NCBI GenBank assembly: GCA_019745775.1
Contig: JAIESR010000107.1
Location: 1-63,967, forward strand
Source of the DNA: Xanthobacteraceae bacterium
GTDB taxonomy: Bacteria; Pseudomonadota; Alphaproteobacteria; Rhizobiales; Xanthobacteraceae
Direction of reading: 5' to 3'
DNA: 63,967 nt
The notes under the pieces are model-generated. The model worked only from the letters and a program-made list of their open reading frames with translations, searched no databases and was not told the origin of the DNA. Below are positions 12,166 through 44,593 of the stretch, in pieces; position 1 is the stretch's first letter; every line of letters starts with the position of its first letter. The position numbers and the translations under genes are program-made.

Positions 12166-12194
12166 TTGCGGAACACATATGGAACGGATAGTGT
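12166..12194 (+). promoter_or_regulatory. lexA promoter
   Basis: A candidate -35 (TTGCGG, 12166-12171) and -10 (TAGTGT, 12189-12194) are 17 bp apart. The LexA box at 12171-12185 fills the spacer, the expected arrangement for repression by exclusion of RNA polymerase. The -10 is weak, so the exact promoter is uncertain. Confidence 0.55.
12171..12185. promoter_or_regulatory. LexA box (GAAC-N7-GAAC)
   Basis: GAAC-ACATATG-GAAC is an exact match, on the opposite strand, to the alphaproteobacterial SOS operator GTTC-N7-GTTC. It lies about 70 bases upstream of lexA, so lexA should repress itself. Confidence 0.85.
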
Positions 12195-12256: not shown

Positions 12257-12961
12257 ATGCTGACCCGCAAGCAGGCAGAGCTTCTGCGCTTCATCCACGA
12301 ACGCCTCAAAGAGGCGGGCGTGCCGCCTTCCTTCGACGAGATGAAGGACGCCCTCGACTTGCGGTCCAAGTCCGGCATCCACCGGCTGATCACCGCGCTC
12401 GAGGAGCGCGGCTTCATTCGCCGCCTGCCCAACCGCGCGCGCGCGATCGAGGTCATCAAGCTTCCGGACTCGGTCGCCCATGGCATGGGCGGCACCGGGC
12501 GCTCGCGCGGGTTCACGCCGAGCGTCATCGAAGGCAATCTGGGGCGCGTGCGCGCCGCCAGCGAGGACGAGAGCGGACGGCCGGTCGCCGTGCCGGTGAT
12601 GGGCCGCATCGCCGCCGGCACGCCGATCGAGGCGATCCAAAGCAAGAGCTCGGTCATCAATATGCCGCCCGACATGCTGTCCTCGGGCGAGCACTTCGCC
12701 CTCGAAGTGCGCGGCGACTCCATGATCGAAGCCGGCATTCTCGACGGCGACATGGCCGTGATCAAGCGCACCGACGTGGCCGACACCGGCGACATCGTGG
12801 TCGCGCTGATCGACGAGGAGGAGGCCACCCTCAAGCGCTTCCGCCGCCGTGGCGCCTCGATCGCGCTGGAGCCGGCGAACACCGCCTATGAGGTGCGGAT
12901 CCTGCCGCCCAACCGCGTGCGCATCCAGGGCAAGCTGATCAGCCTGCTCAGGCGCTATTAG
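12257..12961 (+). CDS. lexA: SOS repressor LexA
   Basis: A 234-residue repressor of the DNA-damage response. The start at 12257 ([10 protein letters not shown]) is the conserved N-terminus; the longer open frame overlaps the operator region. A winged helix occupies residues 1-65. The self-cleavage site is Ala120-Gly121 ([11 protein letters not shown]), with the catalytic dyad Ser155 (GDSM) and Lys193 (ATLKRF). RecA filaments trigger cleavage. Two LexA boxes lie upstream, and two more control a microprotein gene at 42817. Its stop overlaps the stop of convergent comEC by 3 bases. Confidence 0.97.
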
Positions 12962-39001: not shown

Positions 39002-42000
39002 TCAGAGCGCCTGCACCTCGATCACGCCGGGGATCGCCTTGATGGCGCCGGCGATCTGCGGCGAGACCTTGAAGCGGCCGGGGAGTTTCACCTCGACCTC
39101 GGTACCCTCCCGGAGGATCAGCACCATCGAGACCTCGCCGTCGCCTTTGTTGGCGCCCGAGCGCTGCTGCGGCGCGCCGCCCTGTAGGCGCTTGGCGACG
39201 CTTTCGAGCGGCTTCTCGTCGCGCAGGAACACGCGCAGGCCCTTCTGCATCTTGGCGGCGGCCTCATCCAGAGATTCAACACTTTGAATCCGCGCGCGCA
39301 CGTCGTCGCCCTGCAGTTCCGCCGTCAGCCCGAGCAGCACCGCCTTGCCGGGCTCGAGCTGGTCGCGGAACGCTGCCAGCCCCTCGGAGAACAGCACCGC
39401 TTCGTAGTGACCGGACGGATCGGAGAGCCCGATGATCCCCATCTTGCTGCCGGTGCGGGTGCGCCGCTCCTGGCGCGACACCACCGAGCCCGCGACGCGG
39501 CCGGCGCTGGCGCCCGCCTTCACGCTGCGGGCGAATTCCGCCCACGACTGCACGCGCATGCGCTGGAGCGCCGGCGCATAGTCGTCGAGCGGATGGCCGG
39601 ACAGGAAGAAGCCGATGGCGTCGAACTCCTTTTGCAGGCGCTCCGCCGGCGGCCACGGCTCGACCGACGGCAAAGCGAGCGGCGTGCGCGCCGCCGGTCC
39701 GCCGAACAGCTCGGACTGGCCCACCACCGCCGAGTCATGCGCGCGCTGCGCCGACCCGAGGACCGTGTCGACGGATGCATAGGCGCGCGCCCGGTTGGCC
39801 TCGAGCTCGTCGAAGGCGCCAGAGGCCGCGAGACTTTCCAGCACACGCTTGTTCACGGCGCGCGGATTGATGCGGCCTGCAAAGTCGGAGAGATCGGCGA
39901 ACAGCTTGCTGCCGCGCGCCGCAACGATGGCTTCGACCGCCTGCGCGCCGACGCCCTTGAGCGCCGCCAGCGAGTAGTGGATCGCACCGTTCTCGACGTC
40001 GAACGCGACGCCGGAGCGGTTGACCGACGGCGGCACGACCTTGATGCCGAGGCGTTCGGCTTCGGAACGGAATTCGGAGAGCTTGTCGGTGTTGCCCATA
40101 TCGAGGGTCATCGACGCAGCAAGAAACTCGACGGGGTAGTTCGCCTTCATGTAGGCGGTCTGGTAGGCGACCAACGCGTACGCCGCCGCGTGGCTCTTGT
40201 TGAAGCCGTATTCCGCGAAGCGCTCCAGAAGGTCGAAGATCGCGTCGGCCTGCTGGCGCTCGATGCCGCGCTCGGTCGACCCTTTCACGAAATGCGCGCG
40301 CTGCTCCTGCATCTCGCTGCGGATCTTCTTGCCCATGGCGCGGCGCAAGAGGTCGGCCTGGCCGAGCGTATAGCCGGCGAGGATCTGCGCGGCCTGCATC
40401 ACCTGTTCCTGGTAGACGATGACGCCGAAGGTCTCGCGCAGGATCGGCTCGAGCTTGGGATGGATGTAGTCGGGGTCCTCCATCCGGTGCTTGCGCGCGC
40501 AATAGGTCGGGATGTTCGCCATCGGGCCCGGCCGGTAGAGCGCGACCAGCGCGATGATGTCCTCGAACCGGTCGGGCCGCATGTCGAGCAGCGCGCGCCG
40601 CATGCCCTGGCTTTCCAGTTGGAAGATGCCCACCGCCTCGGCCCGCGCCAGCGACTCATAGGTCTTCTTGTCGTCGAGCGGTATCGACGCGAGATCGACC
40701 TCGATGCCGCGCTTGCGCAGCAACGCCACTGCGGTCTGTAGCACGGTCAGCGTCTTGAGGCCGAGGAAGTCGAATTTCACGAGGCCCGCCGGCTCGACCC
40801 ATTTCATGTTGAACTGGGTCACCGGCATGTGGGATTTCGGATCGCGGTAGAGCGGGACGAGCTCCGCGAGCGGCCGCTCGCCGATCACGATGCCGGCGGC
40901 GTGGGTGGAGGCGTGGCGGTGGAGGCCTTCGAGCTTCTGCGCGATGTCGAAGGCGCGCCGCACCACCGGATCGCGGTCGCGCTCGGCCTGGAGCCGCGGC
41001 TCGTCGTCGATCGCGCGCTTGAGCGTGACCGGGTTGGCCGGGTTTTGCGGCACGAGCTTGGTGAGCTTGTCGACCTGCCCATACGGCATCTGTAGCACAC
41101 GGCCGACGTCGCGCAGCACGCCACGCGCCTGCAAGGTGCCGAAGGTGATGATCTGCGCCACCTGATCGCGGCCGTATTTCTGCTGAACGTAGCGGATCAC
41201 CTCGTCGCGGCGGTCCTGGCAGAAGTCGATGTCGAAGTCCGGCATCGACACGCGCTCGGGATTGAGGAAGCGCTCGAACAGGAGGTCGAAGCGGATCGGG
41301 TCGAGATCGGTGATGGTGAGCGAATACGCGACCAGCGAGCCGGCGCCGGAGCCGCGGCCCGGCCCGACCGGGATGCCTTTGGACTTCGCCCACTTGATGA
41401 AGTCGGCGACGATCAGGAAGTAGCCGGGATATTTCATCCCTTCGATGACGCGCAGCTCGAATTCCAGCCGCTCGCGGTATTCCTCGAGGGTGCGTCCGGG
41501 CGCGAGCCCGTGCGCGGCGATGCGGCGATCCAGCCCCTCGACCGCCTGGCGGCGCAGCTCGGCGCCCTCGTCGACCGAGGCGTGCTCGTCGCCGACCGAG
41601 AACCGCGGCAGGATCGGCGCCTTGGTGCGCGGCCGGTAGGCGCATCGCCGCGCGATCTCGACGGTCGACGCGACCGCTTCCGGCAGGTCCGAGAACATCG
41701 CCGCCATCTCGGCGCGGCTTTTGAAACGATGCTCGGCGGTGAGCTGGCGGCGGTCGCTGTCGGCGACCAGCCGGCCCTCGGCGATCGCGATCAGCGCGTC
41801 ATGCGCCTCGTAGTCCTCGCGGGTCGCGAAATACGGCTCGTTGGCGGCGACCAGCGGGAGGCTCTTGGCGTAGGCCATCTCGATCAGCACCGGCTCGGTC
41901 GTGCGCTCGCTCTCCTCGCCATGGCGCTGCAGCTCGACATAGAGCCGATCGCCGAACAGCCTGGCCAGCGCATCGCAGCGCGCCGCCGCCAGCGTGCTGT

Positions 42001-42472
42001 TGCCTCCGACGATGGCGGCGTCGAGCGGCCCGCCCGGCCCGCCCGTCAGCGCGATCAGGCCGTCGGCCTCGCCGTCGAGCCAGTCGAGCTTGATGTGCGG
42101 CGCCTCGTTCGCCGGGCTCTCCAGGAAGGCGCGCGAATTGAGCCGCATCAGGCTGCGGTAGCCGGCCTCGCGGGCGGCGAGCAGCACGATACGCTGGCGC
42201 GCCGGCGTGGTGGCGGCGCCCGGATGGCGCCCGGTGGTGTCCTGATCGCCGAAATCGACCGCCAGCGCGCAGCCGATGATCGGCTGCACGCCATAGCCGG
42301 CGAGCTTTTCGGAGAATTCGAGCGCCCCGAACATGTTGTCGGTGTCGGTCAGCGCCAGCGCCGGCTGGTGGTCGGCCTTGGCGAGCTCCGCCAGGCGCGC
42401 GATGGTCAGCGCGCCTTCCAGGAGCGAATACGACGAGTGGACATGCAGGTGCACGAAGCCGGGTCCGGCCAT
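39002..42472 (-). CDS. dnaE: DNA polymerase III alpha subunit
   Basis: An 1156-residue replicative polymerase. The start MAGPGFVHLHVHSSYSLLEG at 42472 has GAGGAC upstream; the longer frame to 42577 is not supported. Order: PHP domain (1-about 280), polymerase core with catalytic aspartates in MPDFDIDFCQDRRDEVI, helix-hairpin-helix region, OB fold (about 990-1060) and C-terminal tau-binding part. In the PHP domain the first HxH is intact, but the usual TDHxNMFG reads TDTDNMFG and the usual NDxHY reads NEPYF. The PHP is therefore probably not an active exonuclease. Confidence 0.97.
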   Translation of the reverse strand: MAGPGFVHLHVHSSYSLLEGALTIARLAELAKADHQPALALTDTDNMFGALEFSEKLAGYGVQPIIGCALAVDFGDQDTTGRHPGAATTPARQRIVLLAAREAGYRSLMRLNSRAFLESPANEAPHIKLDWLDGEADGLIALTGGPGGPLDAAIVGGNSTLAAARCDALARLFGDRLYVELQRHGEESERTTEPVLIEMAYAKSLPLVAANEPYFATREDYEAHDALIAIAEGRLVADSDRRQLTAEHRFKSRAEMAAMFSDLPEAVASTVEIARRCAYRPRTKAPILPRFSVGDEHASVDEGAELRRQAVEGLDRRIAAHGLAPGRTLEEYRERLEFELRVIEGMKYPGYFLIVADFIKWAKSKGIPVGPGRGSGAGSLVAYSLTITDLDPIRFDLLFERFLNPERVSMPDFDIDFCQDRRDEVIRYVQQKYGRDQVAQIITFGTLQARGVLRDVGRVLQMPYGQVDKLTKLVPQNPANPVTLKRAIDDEPRLQAERDRDPVVRRAFDIAQKLEGLHRHASTHAAGIVIGERPLAELVPLYRDPKSHMPVTQFNMKWVEPAGLVKFDFLGLKTLTVLQTAVALLRKRGIEVDLASIPLDDKKTYESLARAEAVGIFQLESQGMRRALLDMRPDRFEDIIALVALYRPGPMANIPTYCARKHRMEDPDYIHPKLEPILRETFGVIVYQEQVMQAAQILAGYTLGQADLLRRAMGKKIRSEMQEQRAHFVKGSTERGIERQQADAIFDLLERFAEYGFNKSHAAAYALVAYQTAYMKANYPVEFLAASMTLDMGNTDKLSEFRSEAERLGIKVVPPSVNRSGVAFDVENGAIHYSLAALKGVGAQAVEAIVAARGSKLFADLSDFAGRINPRAVNKRVLESLAASGAFDELEANRARAYASVDTVLGSAQRAHDSAVVGQSELFGGPAARTPLALPSVEPWPPAERLQKEFDAIGFFLSGHPLDDYAPALQRMRVQSWAEFARSVKAGASAGRVAGSVVSRQERRTRTGSKMGIIGLSDPSGHYEAVLFSEGLAAFRDQLEPGKAVLLGLTAELQGDDVRARIQSVESLDEAAAKMQKGLRVFLRDEKPLESVAKRLQGGAPQQRSGANKGDGEVSMVLILREGTEVEVKLPGRFKVSPQIAGAIKAIPGVIEVQAL

Positions 42473-42718
42473 CAGGTCCTCACGAATCTCTTTGAAATAT
42501 CGTGAGGATCGTCCTTGGCGGTGTCCACCTTCAGCGCGCGTCCCGGGCGGGTCATCCGACTTTTCCCCAGGGGGCAAATCTTACAGCCCAAGCGACGGCC
42601 GTAAGATTGCAAAAACGTGAAATTCTATCATTTTTTCAATCGCTTAATCGCCAATCTTACAAACTTACACCGCTTACCACTGTTCTGCACCGTGCTAGGT
42701 TACCACCGGTCTGCCCTG
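42473..42718. other. Gap between dnaE and the SOS microprotein gene
   Basis: An AT-richer stretch of about 245 bases, upstream of dnaE on its strand, so it should hold the dnaE promoter. The core AATCTTAC occurs at 42577-42584, in reverse at 42601-42608, and again at 42653-42660, followed by TTACACC and CTTACC. The first two form an inverted repeat with a 16-base centre. Confidence 0.5.
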
Positions 42719-42817
42719 TCACAGCGTCGCGATGACCTGCGCCCAGATCACGACCATGCCGATGAACAGGGCGAGCGAGGTCAGGGCAGCGGCTTCCTCA
42801 ATCAGCGAACGGATCAT
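42719..42817 (-). CDS. 32-residue SOS-regulated membrane microprotein
   Basis: A complete gene for 32 residues. It begins MIRSLIEEAAA, continues as one long hydrophobic helix (LTSLALFIGMVVIWAQVIA) and ends TL before TGA. A strong ribosome-binding site (GGAGGAG, 42824-42830) lies 7 bases upstream. Its promoter (TTGACT, 18 bp, TATGTT) contains two exact LexA boxes, so expression should be off until DNA damage. I do not recognise the sequence. Its size, single helix and SOS control match SidA of Caulobacter, a 29-residue SOS-induced inhibitor of the divisome. That comparison rests on properties, not on aligned sequence. It sits between dnaE and an RTX-like gene. Confidence 0.82.
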   Translation of the reverse strand: MIRSLIEEAAALTSLALFIGMVVIWAQVIATL

Positions 42818-42835
42818 GGGTGTCTCCTCCGAAAA

Positions 42836-42850
42836 GAACGAAGGAAGAAC
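42836..42850. promoter_or_regulatory. LexA box 1 of the microprotein gene
   Basis: GAAC-GAAGGAA-GAAC is an exact GAAC-N7-GAAC SOS operator, 19 bases upstream of the start codon at 42817. It covers the probable transcription start and overlaps the -10. Confidence 0.85.
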
Positions 42851-42877
42851 ATAGTTCACTTTCTGTTCTGGAGTCAA
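42848..42877 (-). promoter_or_regulatory. Promoter of the SOS microprotein gene
   Basis: On the minus strand TTGACT (-35, 42872-42877) and TATGTT (-10, 42848-42853) are 18 bp apart, close to the sigma-70 consensus. LexA boxes occupy both the spacer and the region just after the -10, a tightly repressible layout. Confidence 0.75.
42854..42868. promoter_or_regulatory. LexA box 2 of the microprotein gene
   Basis: GTTC-ACTTTCT-GTTC is an exact SOS operator. It lies in the spacer between -35 and -10 and is three bases from box 1, in opposite orientation. The pair therefore forms a larger palindrome centred on 42852. Confidence 0.88.
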
Positions 42878-43070: not shown

Positions 43071-44054
43071 ATGACCGCGAAGCTTGGCAAGTCGACCGTG
43101 GGAACCAACGGCGACAGTAACGACATGTTCGACTTTGTCGCCCACCTGACGTCGCCCGATACCGCCCTTTACGACGGCTTCTTTGGCGAGAAGATCGATC
43201 TCAGCGAGAGATCCTATGATCCCGTCAAGGTCGATACGCCCACGAGCGGGCTGCTCGTGACCGGCACCGAGCACGACGACTCGCTTTACGGCTCCGAACT
43301 CAACGATGAAATCTACGGCCTTGCCGGCAATGACCGGATCGACGCGGGCGGCGGCAATGACCTGTTGTTCGGCGGCCTCGGTAACGACACGTTGTTCGGC
43401 GGCGCCGGGGTGGACACCGTCAGCTACGCAGGAAGCGACGCCCCCATCAACGCCCAGCTTTTTTCCAACCTGGTTCACACCTACCGCGTGGAAGGCGACG
43501 AGAACGGAGAGCATACACACCTTGTTGAAACCGATATGCTTTACAGCGTCGAGCGCGTCATCGGTTCGAACTACGACGACTATATGTACGGCGGTCAGAA
43601 TGGTGGACTGCTGGATGGCGGCGGCGGCAATGATTACCTCTTCGGCGGCGGGACTGACGGACTGACCGTTCTGGTTGGCGGCGACGGCGACGACCGCCTC
43701 TATTCAGGGAGCGCGGCGACCTGGATGACCGGCGGCAGTGGCGCCGACGAGTTCGTCTTCGGGATCGCCGGACCATCGACGGTCACCGATTTCACGTCCG
43801 GTGTCGACAAAATCTGGGACGTCGCTTCGGTCTACGAGAACGGTCTTCCGCTCGGGCACGATTGGATACTGGCAACCGGGACAGAGTTGCCGACGGCCCG
43901 GAACGCCGATGGCGATGCCCTGTTCTACGACACGGACGACTACGCGCTGTACGAGCTCTGGTATGACGACGATGGCCAGGTCAGCGACACGTTCCTGCTG
44001 GCGACCTTCACCAACGGCATCCAGCTTGAGGCCGGCGACTTCATGTTTGTGTAG
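43071..44054 (+). CDS. RTX-type calcium-binding repeat protein
   Basis: A 327-residue acidic protein. The start at 43071 (MTAKLGKSTVG) has GGGAG upstream. Glycine/aspartate nonapeptide repeats occur at about residues 60-120 (GTEHDDSLYG, GLAGNDRIDAGGGNDLLFGG, GLGNDTLFGGAGVDTVSY) and 180-225 (GGGGNDYLFGG, GGDGDDRLY, GGSGADEFVFG), forming calcium-bound parallel beta-rolls. No N-terminal signal is present, as expected for type I secretion. The C-terminus (LATFTNGIQLEAGDFMFV) resembles serralysin-type tails. No transporter or protease domain is encoded nearby, so it may be a secreted structural or adhesive protein. Confidence 0.85.
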   Translation: MTAKLGKSTVGTNGDSNDMFDFVAHLTSPDTALYDGFFGEKIDLSERSYDPVKVDTPTSGLLVTGTEHDDSLYGSELNDEIYGLAGNDRIDAGGGNDLLFGGLGNDTLFGGAGVDTVSYAGSDAPINAQLFSNLVHTYRVEGDENGEHTHLVETDMLYSVERVIGSNYDDYMYGGQNGGLLDGGGGNDYLFGGGTDGLTVLVGGDGDDRLYSGSAATWMTGGSGADEFVFGIAGPSTVTDFTSGVDKIWDVASVYENGLPLGHDWILATGTELPTARNADGDALFYDTDDYALYELWYDDDGQVSDTFLLATFTNGIQLEAGDFMFV

Positions 44055-44265: not shown

Positions 44266-44302
44266 TTCCCCTCCCCCTTGTGGGGAGGGGTCAGGGGTGG
44301 GG
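44266..44302. repeat. Left inverted repeat of the DUF559 cassette
   Basis: A 37-bp C/G-rich sequence (starts TTCCCCTCCCCCTTG, ends TCAGGGGTGGGG). It is the reverse complement of 44557-44593 with a single mismatch. It also has an internal hairpin (CCCCTCCCC / GGGGAGGGG). Confidence 0.85.
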
Positions 44303-44556: not shown

Positions 44557-44593
44557 CCCCACCCCTAACCCCTCCCCACAAGGGGGAGGGGAA
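44557..44593. repeat. Right inverted repeat of the DUF559 cassette
   Basis: A 37-bp mirror of 44266-44302 (starts CCCCACCCCTAACC, ends GGGGGAGGGGAA). The two copies bound a 254-bp segment with the endonuclease remnant. The remaining 80 bases to the end of lolD hold nothing I can name. Confidence 0.85.

Follow-up and report, generated by a model that had tools for sequence, protein, structure and literature searches.

The microprotein gene and its operator

The window, by which we mean the whole stretch of 63,967 nucleotides that was analysed, carries on its reverse strand at 42719-42817 a 32-codon microprotein gene, read directly as MIRSLIEEAAALTSLALFIGMVVIWAQVIATL from the ATG at 42817 and closed by a TGA at 42721-42719. 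A ribosome-binding site, GGAGGAG, also read directly, occupies 42824-42830 on the same strand, with the ATG 6 nt further on. Two exact LexA boxes lie upstream of it, again on the reverse strand: GTTCTTCCTTCGTTC at 42836-42850, which shares the last three bases of the -10 hexamer of a putative promoter, and GAACAGAAAGTGAAC at 42854-42868, within the promoter spacer. The promoter (42848-42877, reverse strand), proposed from a consensus match only, consists of TTGACT (42877-42872) and TATGTT (42853-42848), 18 nt apart. An earlier note, made from the DNA alone, had claimed this promoter, the two exact boxes and a strong ribosome-binding site, and all were found where it had put them. A 52-residue reading of the same frame, starting at a TTG within the -35 hexamer, was ruled out because its extra codons are operator; the conserved start codon is the ATG at 42817.

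The two boxes together form a 33-bp inverted pair, GAACN7GAAC-N3-GTTCN7GTTC. Single exact boxes are weak evidence, because chance alone yields 1.5 of them in the window, against the five present (4 of 100 shuffles reached five); the inverted pair is a strong, informative feature. Judged from this double exact box, which is conserved across relatives, the gene appears to be under LexA control. The gene for LexA lies in the same window (12257-12961, forward strand; TIGR00498, 185 bits against a cutoff of 111; PF01726 and PF00717) and has an exact box of its own at 12171-12185, of the same operator type, again as the earlier note had said; its product is presumed to be the repressor of the microprotein gene. 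The next gene downstream of the microprotein gene, on the same strand and about 245 nt from its stop codon, is dnaE (39002-42472; NF004226, 1484 bits against a cutoff of 1002), encoding the replicative DNA polymerase III alpha.

AlphaFold2 modelled the microprotein as a single helix spanning residues 2-31 (mean pLDDT 97.6), in agreement with the single-helix protein proposed earlier, and a membrane location is predicted for it. It matched no Pfam model and no NCBIfam model, and this lack of a match is the sole basis for the earlier suggestion that gene callers miss the gene.

Several repeats were seen nearby. Between the microprotein gene and dnaE, at 42577-42608, is an inverted repeat, AATCTTACAGCC / GGCCGTAAGATT, with arms of 12 nt (92%) separated by 8 nt. 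The GTAAGATTG arm recurs a third time 42 nt from it, at 42652-42660; these arms could serve as an operator or a hairpin ahead of dnaE. The divergent neighbour (43071-44054, forward strand) encodes a 327-residue protein with RTX calcium-binding repeats (PF00353), to which its match is confined, no family model reaching its cutoff. Beyond it lies a 37-nt inverted repeat (44266-44302 / 44557-44593; 97%, 254 nt apart), each arm of which contains a CCCCTCCCC hairpin and which looks mobile or repetitive.

Conservation in the family and the order

The 32-residue query matched in 29 of 61 genomes at E ≤ 1.4e-5 (34 of 61 at E ≤ 1), the 29 comprising 28 from the window's family, which has 37 genomes in the set, and one from another family. 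An exact box was present within 150 nt upstream at 29 of the 30 loci read, the one exception (L009) having 34 nt of upstream sequence, and two boxes were present at 26; the inverted pair, with a spacer of 1-4 nt, occurred at 24 of the 30, and a codirectional dnaE followed the microprotein gene at 29 of the 30. When the composite operator GAACN7GAAC-N3-GTTCN7GTTC was itself searched for, it was found at 24 places in 23 of the 61 genomes, compared with none for the pattern read backwards; 23 of these places lie within about 60 nt of a microprotein gene, one genome (G011) having two copies, and the remaining one, in a genome of another family (G057), precedes dnaE by about 280 nt.

A scan of named species confirmed 287 relatives, and the counts that follow cover the best 80 of the 287, which include Bradyrhizobium, Rhodopseudomonas, Afipia, Pseudorhodoplanes and other genera. 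The protein has 32 residues at 79 of these loci and 33 at one. The earlier note had set conservation of the frame and boxes upstream of dnaE in relatives as its test, and both were strongly conserved: the operator is double at 76 of the 80 (one box at two, none at one and too little sequence at one), and dnaE lies codirectionally downstream at 76, at a distance of 119 to 725 nt. The other four are without dnaE in the available flank, which in two of them is less than 500 nt downstream. Across the 55 distinct family proteins from the same best 80 loci, E8, S14, F18, G20, M21 and W25 are invariant. For 76 distinct 30-codon sequences, pN/pS was 0.24 in frame, compared with values from 0.48 to 4.3 when any of the five alternative frames was used, and the pairwise-summed differences at codon positions 1, 2 and 3 were 20394, 5076 and 39003; from both patterns we conclude that the frame is under purifying selection as a protein.

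Within the window's own family, 8 of 37 genomes lacked the match. In seven of these eight the sequence upstream of dnaE (600 nt in six, 174 nt in one) contained no exact box, and in those seven genomes the peptide and the operator are missing together. A second microprotein match was observed in two genomes, G011 (L023 and contig C504) and G028 (contigs C1 and C13); both copies in G011 carry the composite operator, and a mixed bin is possible there because the assembly is fragmented. We also observed the gene with a LexA box, but with dnaE absent from the available flank, at L006/L229, L270 and L053, the box being double at L006/L229 and L270; the gene can therefore exist apart from dnaE.

A profile of the family (A1), built from 25 of the 30 loci (L002, L007, L019, L025 and L026 were omitted), was run against 199 genomes of the order and found clear members together with 17 weak loci (L051-L067; E-values from 1e-8 to 0.014). 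Neither position nor box was used in finding these weak loci, 15 of which lie directly upstream of a codirectional dnaE and 13 of which have an exact LexA box inside the match or within 200 nt upstream. A second profile (A2), of 26 sequences of the order, takes in 13 of the 17, leaving out L053 (no dnaE near), L056 (start unclear), L063 (a near copy of L059) and L065 (inside an unrelated long frame). In one family, f189, we noted 27-residue versions adjoining dnaE (L059, L062 and L063) with a degenerate proximal LexA site (GAACAAAACAAATAC), and its operator may have drifted.

Caulobacter sidA and the region upstream of dnaE

Caulobacter genomes were recognised by PleD, with a query whose sequence is that of a PleD chain in the PDB; identity to it was 100% in G687 and 99% in G706. 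Among 29 Caulobacteraceae genomes, dnaE was found in 28, of which 17 have an exact box upstream of it and 11 do not, and at all 17 boxed loci the box is followed by a SidA-like ORF of 29-31 residues. In G687, the LexA-boxed ORF directly upstream of dnaE is 29 residues long and matches NF033228, the SidA model (E 2e-20, 72.4 bits against a cutoff of 35); it is identified as SidA by this match and its length, not by the published sequence. As a positive control, NF033228 matched all 15 aligned Caulobacteraceae ORFs. SidA, at 29 residues, is described as residing in the inner membrane and acting on FtsW (passages of PMC4211646), and the Caulobacter genes are numbered CCNA_02004 for sidA (passages of PMC10769358) and CC1926 for dnaE (passages of PMC1839093). 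From these numbers and the boxed ORF of G687 we conclude that sidA in Caulobacter is also directly upstream of dnaE.

In order to compare the two groups, we aligned A2 with a profile of the Caulobacteraceae ORFs (A3; 15 of the 17 boxed ORFs, L107 and L110 being omitted), using hhalign. The alignment was gap-free (probability 52.5, E 1.4e-4) and placed E8 of the window protein on E7 of SidA, with A, L, S, F and M aligned. A rerun scored 19.0, which none of 300 whole-column shuffles of A3 reached (best 16.3) and none of 300 core-only shuffles reached either (best 18.5); the narrower A1 against A3 gave a probability of 5.9 and an E-value of 0.0064. NF033228 did not match the window protein at its cutoff of 35 bits; it matched one of the 26 A2 members, at E 0.067, and was over its cutoff in none of 21 relatives' genomes, so the window gene was not filed as a SidA member. 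Of 14 control genomes in the same search, one was over the cutoff and seven matched at all, Caulobacter vibrioides being among the seven. Sequence alone is modest evidence for homology to SidA. The relationship is carried by four features jointly, namely locus, operator, length and register, and we regard the window protein as belonging to a divergent SidA-like family that is probably orthologous to SidA.

The likenesses are that both proteins are single helices (29 residues in SidA, 32 in the window protein) encoded behind LexA boxes, that dnaE directly follows both genes in the same orientation, and that both groups have the register E/D-x2-A-L-x-S-x3-F-x2-M. The Rhizobiales form differs in its two inverted boxes, in a C-terminal half of the WA[QR] type and in a G-M pair where SidA has W-M, and action on FtsW has been shown for SidA only (passages of PMC4211646). 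The earlier note had named SidA as the closest known analogue, and the results carry that further, with sidA at the same LexA-boxed place before dnaE and the two profiles in one register.

A class-wide profile search matched 32 of 385 genomes at E ≤ 0.1 and yielded mostly noise, dnaE being present at only one (L068, without an exact box) of the 28 new class loci (L068-L095). The survey of Alphaproteobacteria therefore found dnaE first and then read upstream. It covered 90 class genomes, chosen from the 183 in which dnaE had been matched so as to give roughly one for each family and to pass over most of the small or fragmentary ones; 29 genomes of the order, made up of 22 other families and seven match-less genomes of the window's family; and the 28 Caulobacteraceae. 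An exact box lay within 500 nt upstream of dnaE in 16 of 90 class, 11 of 29 order and 17 of 28 Caulobacteraceae genomes, the 11 order boxes all being among the 22 other families, compared with 0 of 89, 1 of 28 and 0 of 28, respectively, in a control stretch from -1000 to -500 of dnaE. The sole box found there (L309, G046) may mark a copy of the gene that has been displaced or broken.

At the boxed loci we then looked for an ORF of 24-60 residues with a strongly hydrophobic stretch, after the box and towards dnaE. Such an ORF was present at 11 of 16 class, 10 of 11 order and 15 of 17 Caulobacteraceae loci, but in the opposite direction at only 1 of 16, 0 of 11 and 1 of 17 (2 of 44 boxed loci). 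Counted over everything surveyed, a boxed helix micro-ORF lies upstream of dnaE in 11 of the 90 genomes of the class, in 10 of the 22 other families of the order and in 15 of 28 Caulobacteraceae. No qualifying ORF was found at five boxed class loci (L147, L188, L192, L199 and L202, the last having one by eye) or at one boxed order locus (L312), and L119 and L122 of the Caulobacteraceae have SidA-like ORFs below the hydrophobicity limit. When 2788 ORFs taken from these 90 class loci were scored with a combined A2 and A3 model, the top six had E-values of 0.0004 to 0.064 and the next 1.1; all six are box-bearing, in the sense direction and proximal to dnaE.

The 500 nt before dnaE contained no exact box in 74 of the 90 class genomes, 11 of the 22 order families and 11 of the 28 Caulobacteraceae, so in many of these the gene is absent, has moved or is under a changed box, and they count against its being universal. 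The earlier note had suggested a factor of Rhizobiales; the family extends further than that order, and within the window's own family 8 of 37 genomes are without it.

Function and alternative explanations

We consider it likely that the gene is genuine and under LexA control and that its product is a one-helix membrane microprotein, a far-diverged relative and most likely an orthologue of SidA, which would act by braking FtsW. Its most likely role, as read from sequence, would be that of an SOS-induced inhibitor of septal synthesis acting through FtsW, which is encoded in the same genome. DNA damage would activate RecA and lead to the cleavage of LexA, freeing both boxes; the strong promoter and ribosome-binding site would then allow the peptide to be produced and to enter the inner membrane, where its helix (E/D-x2-A-L-x-S-x3-F-x2-M) would bind FtsW in the divisome, so that the making of septal peptidoglycan would be held back until repair. 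The position of the boxes over the spacer and the start suggests tight repression, as expected of a product that stops growth. In Caulobacter, the LexA boxes are of the GTTCN7GTTC type and a lexA-null strain filaments because sidA is constitutive (passages of PMC12700426), SidA and DidA target the septal synthesis complex rather than the Z-ring, and SidA lies on helix 7 of FtsW in a model of low confidence (passages of PMC13396833).

Other known systems are similar in part. SulA (PF03846) is likewise an SOS-induced inhibitor of division by role, but it is a cytosolic FtsZ inhibitor (passages of PMC4211646). A search of 21 genomes gave no PF03846 match in any of them, and the SulA domain is absent from the window protein, which has no Pfam match. 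The Gram-positive YneA, ChiZ and SosA are SOS-induced small membrane inhibitors of division, YneA targeting FtsW and ChiZ and SosA being modelled to do the same, although they are longer and ChiZ has a LysM domain (passages of PMC13396833); the window protein, compared with YneA and ChiZ, consists of 32 residues that form little more than the helix, matches no Pfam domain and has no extracytoplasmic region or LysM. DidA of Caulobacter is also a small DNA-damage-induced inhibitor of division at the septal complex (passages of PMC13396833), but it is SOS-independent (PMC4211646).

The window protein is small, hydrophobic, apparently LexA-controlled and a single helix, and might therefore be a membrane-active peptide that lowers the membrane potential or slows growth with no binding to the divisome. 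TisB of Escherichia coli, an SOS-controlled single-helix membrane peptide, is a toxin under antisense RNA control. DinQ of E. coli is similar as an SOS-regulated, single-transmembrane toxic peptide and differs in being under antisense RNA control (PMC3567139). We regard such a function as unlikely here, because locus, operator, length and aligned register all match SidA, and because the invariant E8, S14, F18, G20, M21 and W25 suggest a specific contact. The window protein might also be a one-helix SOS regulator of another membrane target, such as a different divisome protein, a protease or a transporter, sharing its origin but not its target with SidA; the divergence from SidA is large and the faces of the helix could have switched partner, but the S, F and M register is common to both, and we give this slightly less credence still.

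The codirectional position upstream of dnaE, at 76 of the best 80 of the 287 loci, is also what would be seen if the frame were translated as a leader peptide or upstream ORF in order to adjust the expression of dnaE. This is improbable, since the amino acids are kept through synonymous change, the distance to dnaE varies from 119 to 725 nt, and L006/L229 and L270 have the gene and its double box with no dnaE in the available flank. That a chance ORF simply lies beside chance boxes, as the 1.5 single boxes expected in the window might suggest, is contradicted by the conservation of frame, operator and neighbour, and can be set aside with near certainty. The SidA-like reading, in which the peptide would brake septal synthesis through FtsW, is therefore the one we prefer.

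We also lean, if only slightly, towards the wider view that an SOS-induced one-helix peptide before dnaE is an ancestral alphaproteobacterial damage checkpoint whose sequence has drifted under its LexA boxes. On this view the peptide would keep its place under the boxes while its sequence outran family models, and SidA would be only its Caulobacter version. If this is true, the place before the polymerase may tie the division brake to LexA and, perhaps by read-through, to dnaE. The passages of the open-licence literature that were searched describe no SOS division inhibitor in Rhizobiales and report no gene for the window microprotein, and those on SidA and its homologues describe none from Rhizobiales. 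The gene is a conserved candidate with a direct test, which makes the damage checkpoint of the group that includes Bradyrhizobium, Rhodopseudomonas and Afipia testable. A fixed locus together with an operator finds microproteins that sequence models miss, and SidA passes from a case confined to Caulobacteraceae to a comparative family in which the face that would touch FtsW may be mapped.
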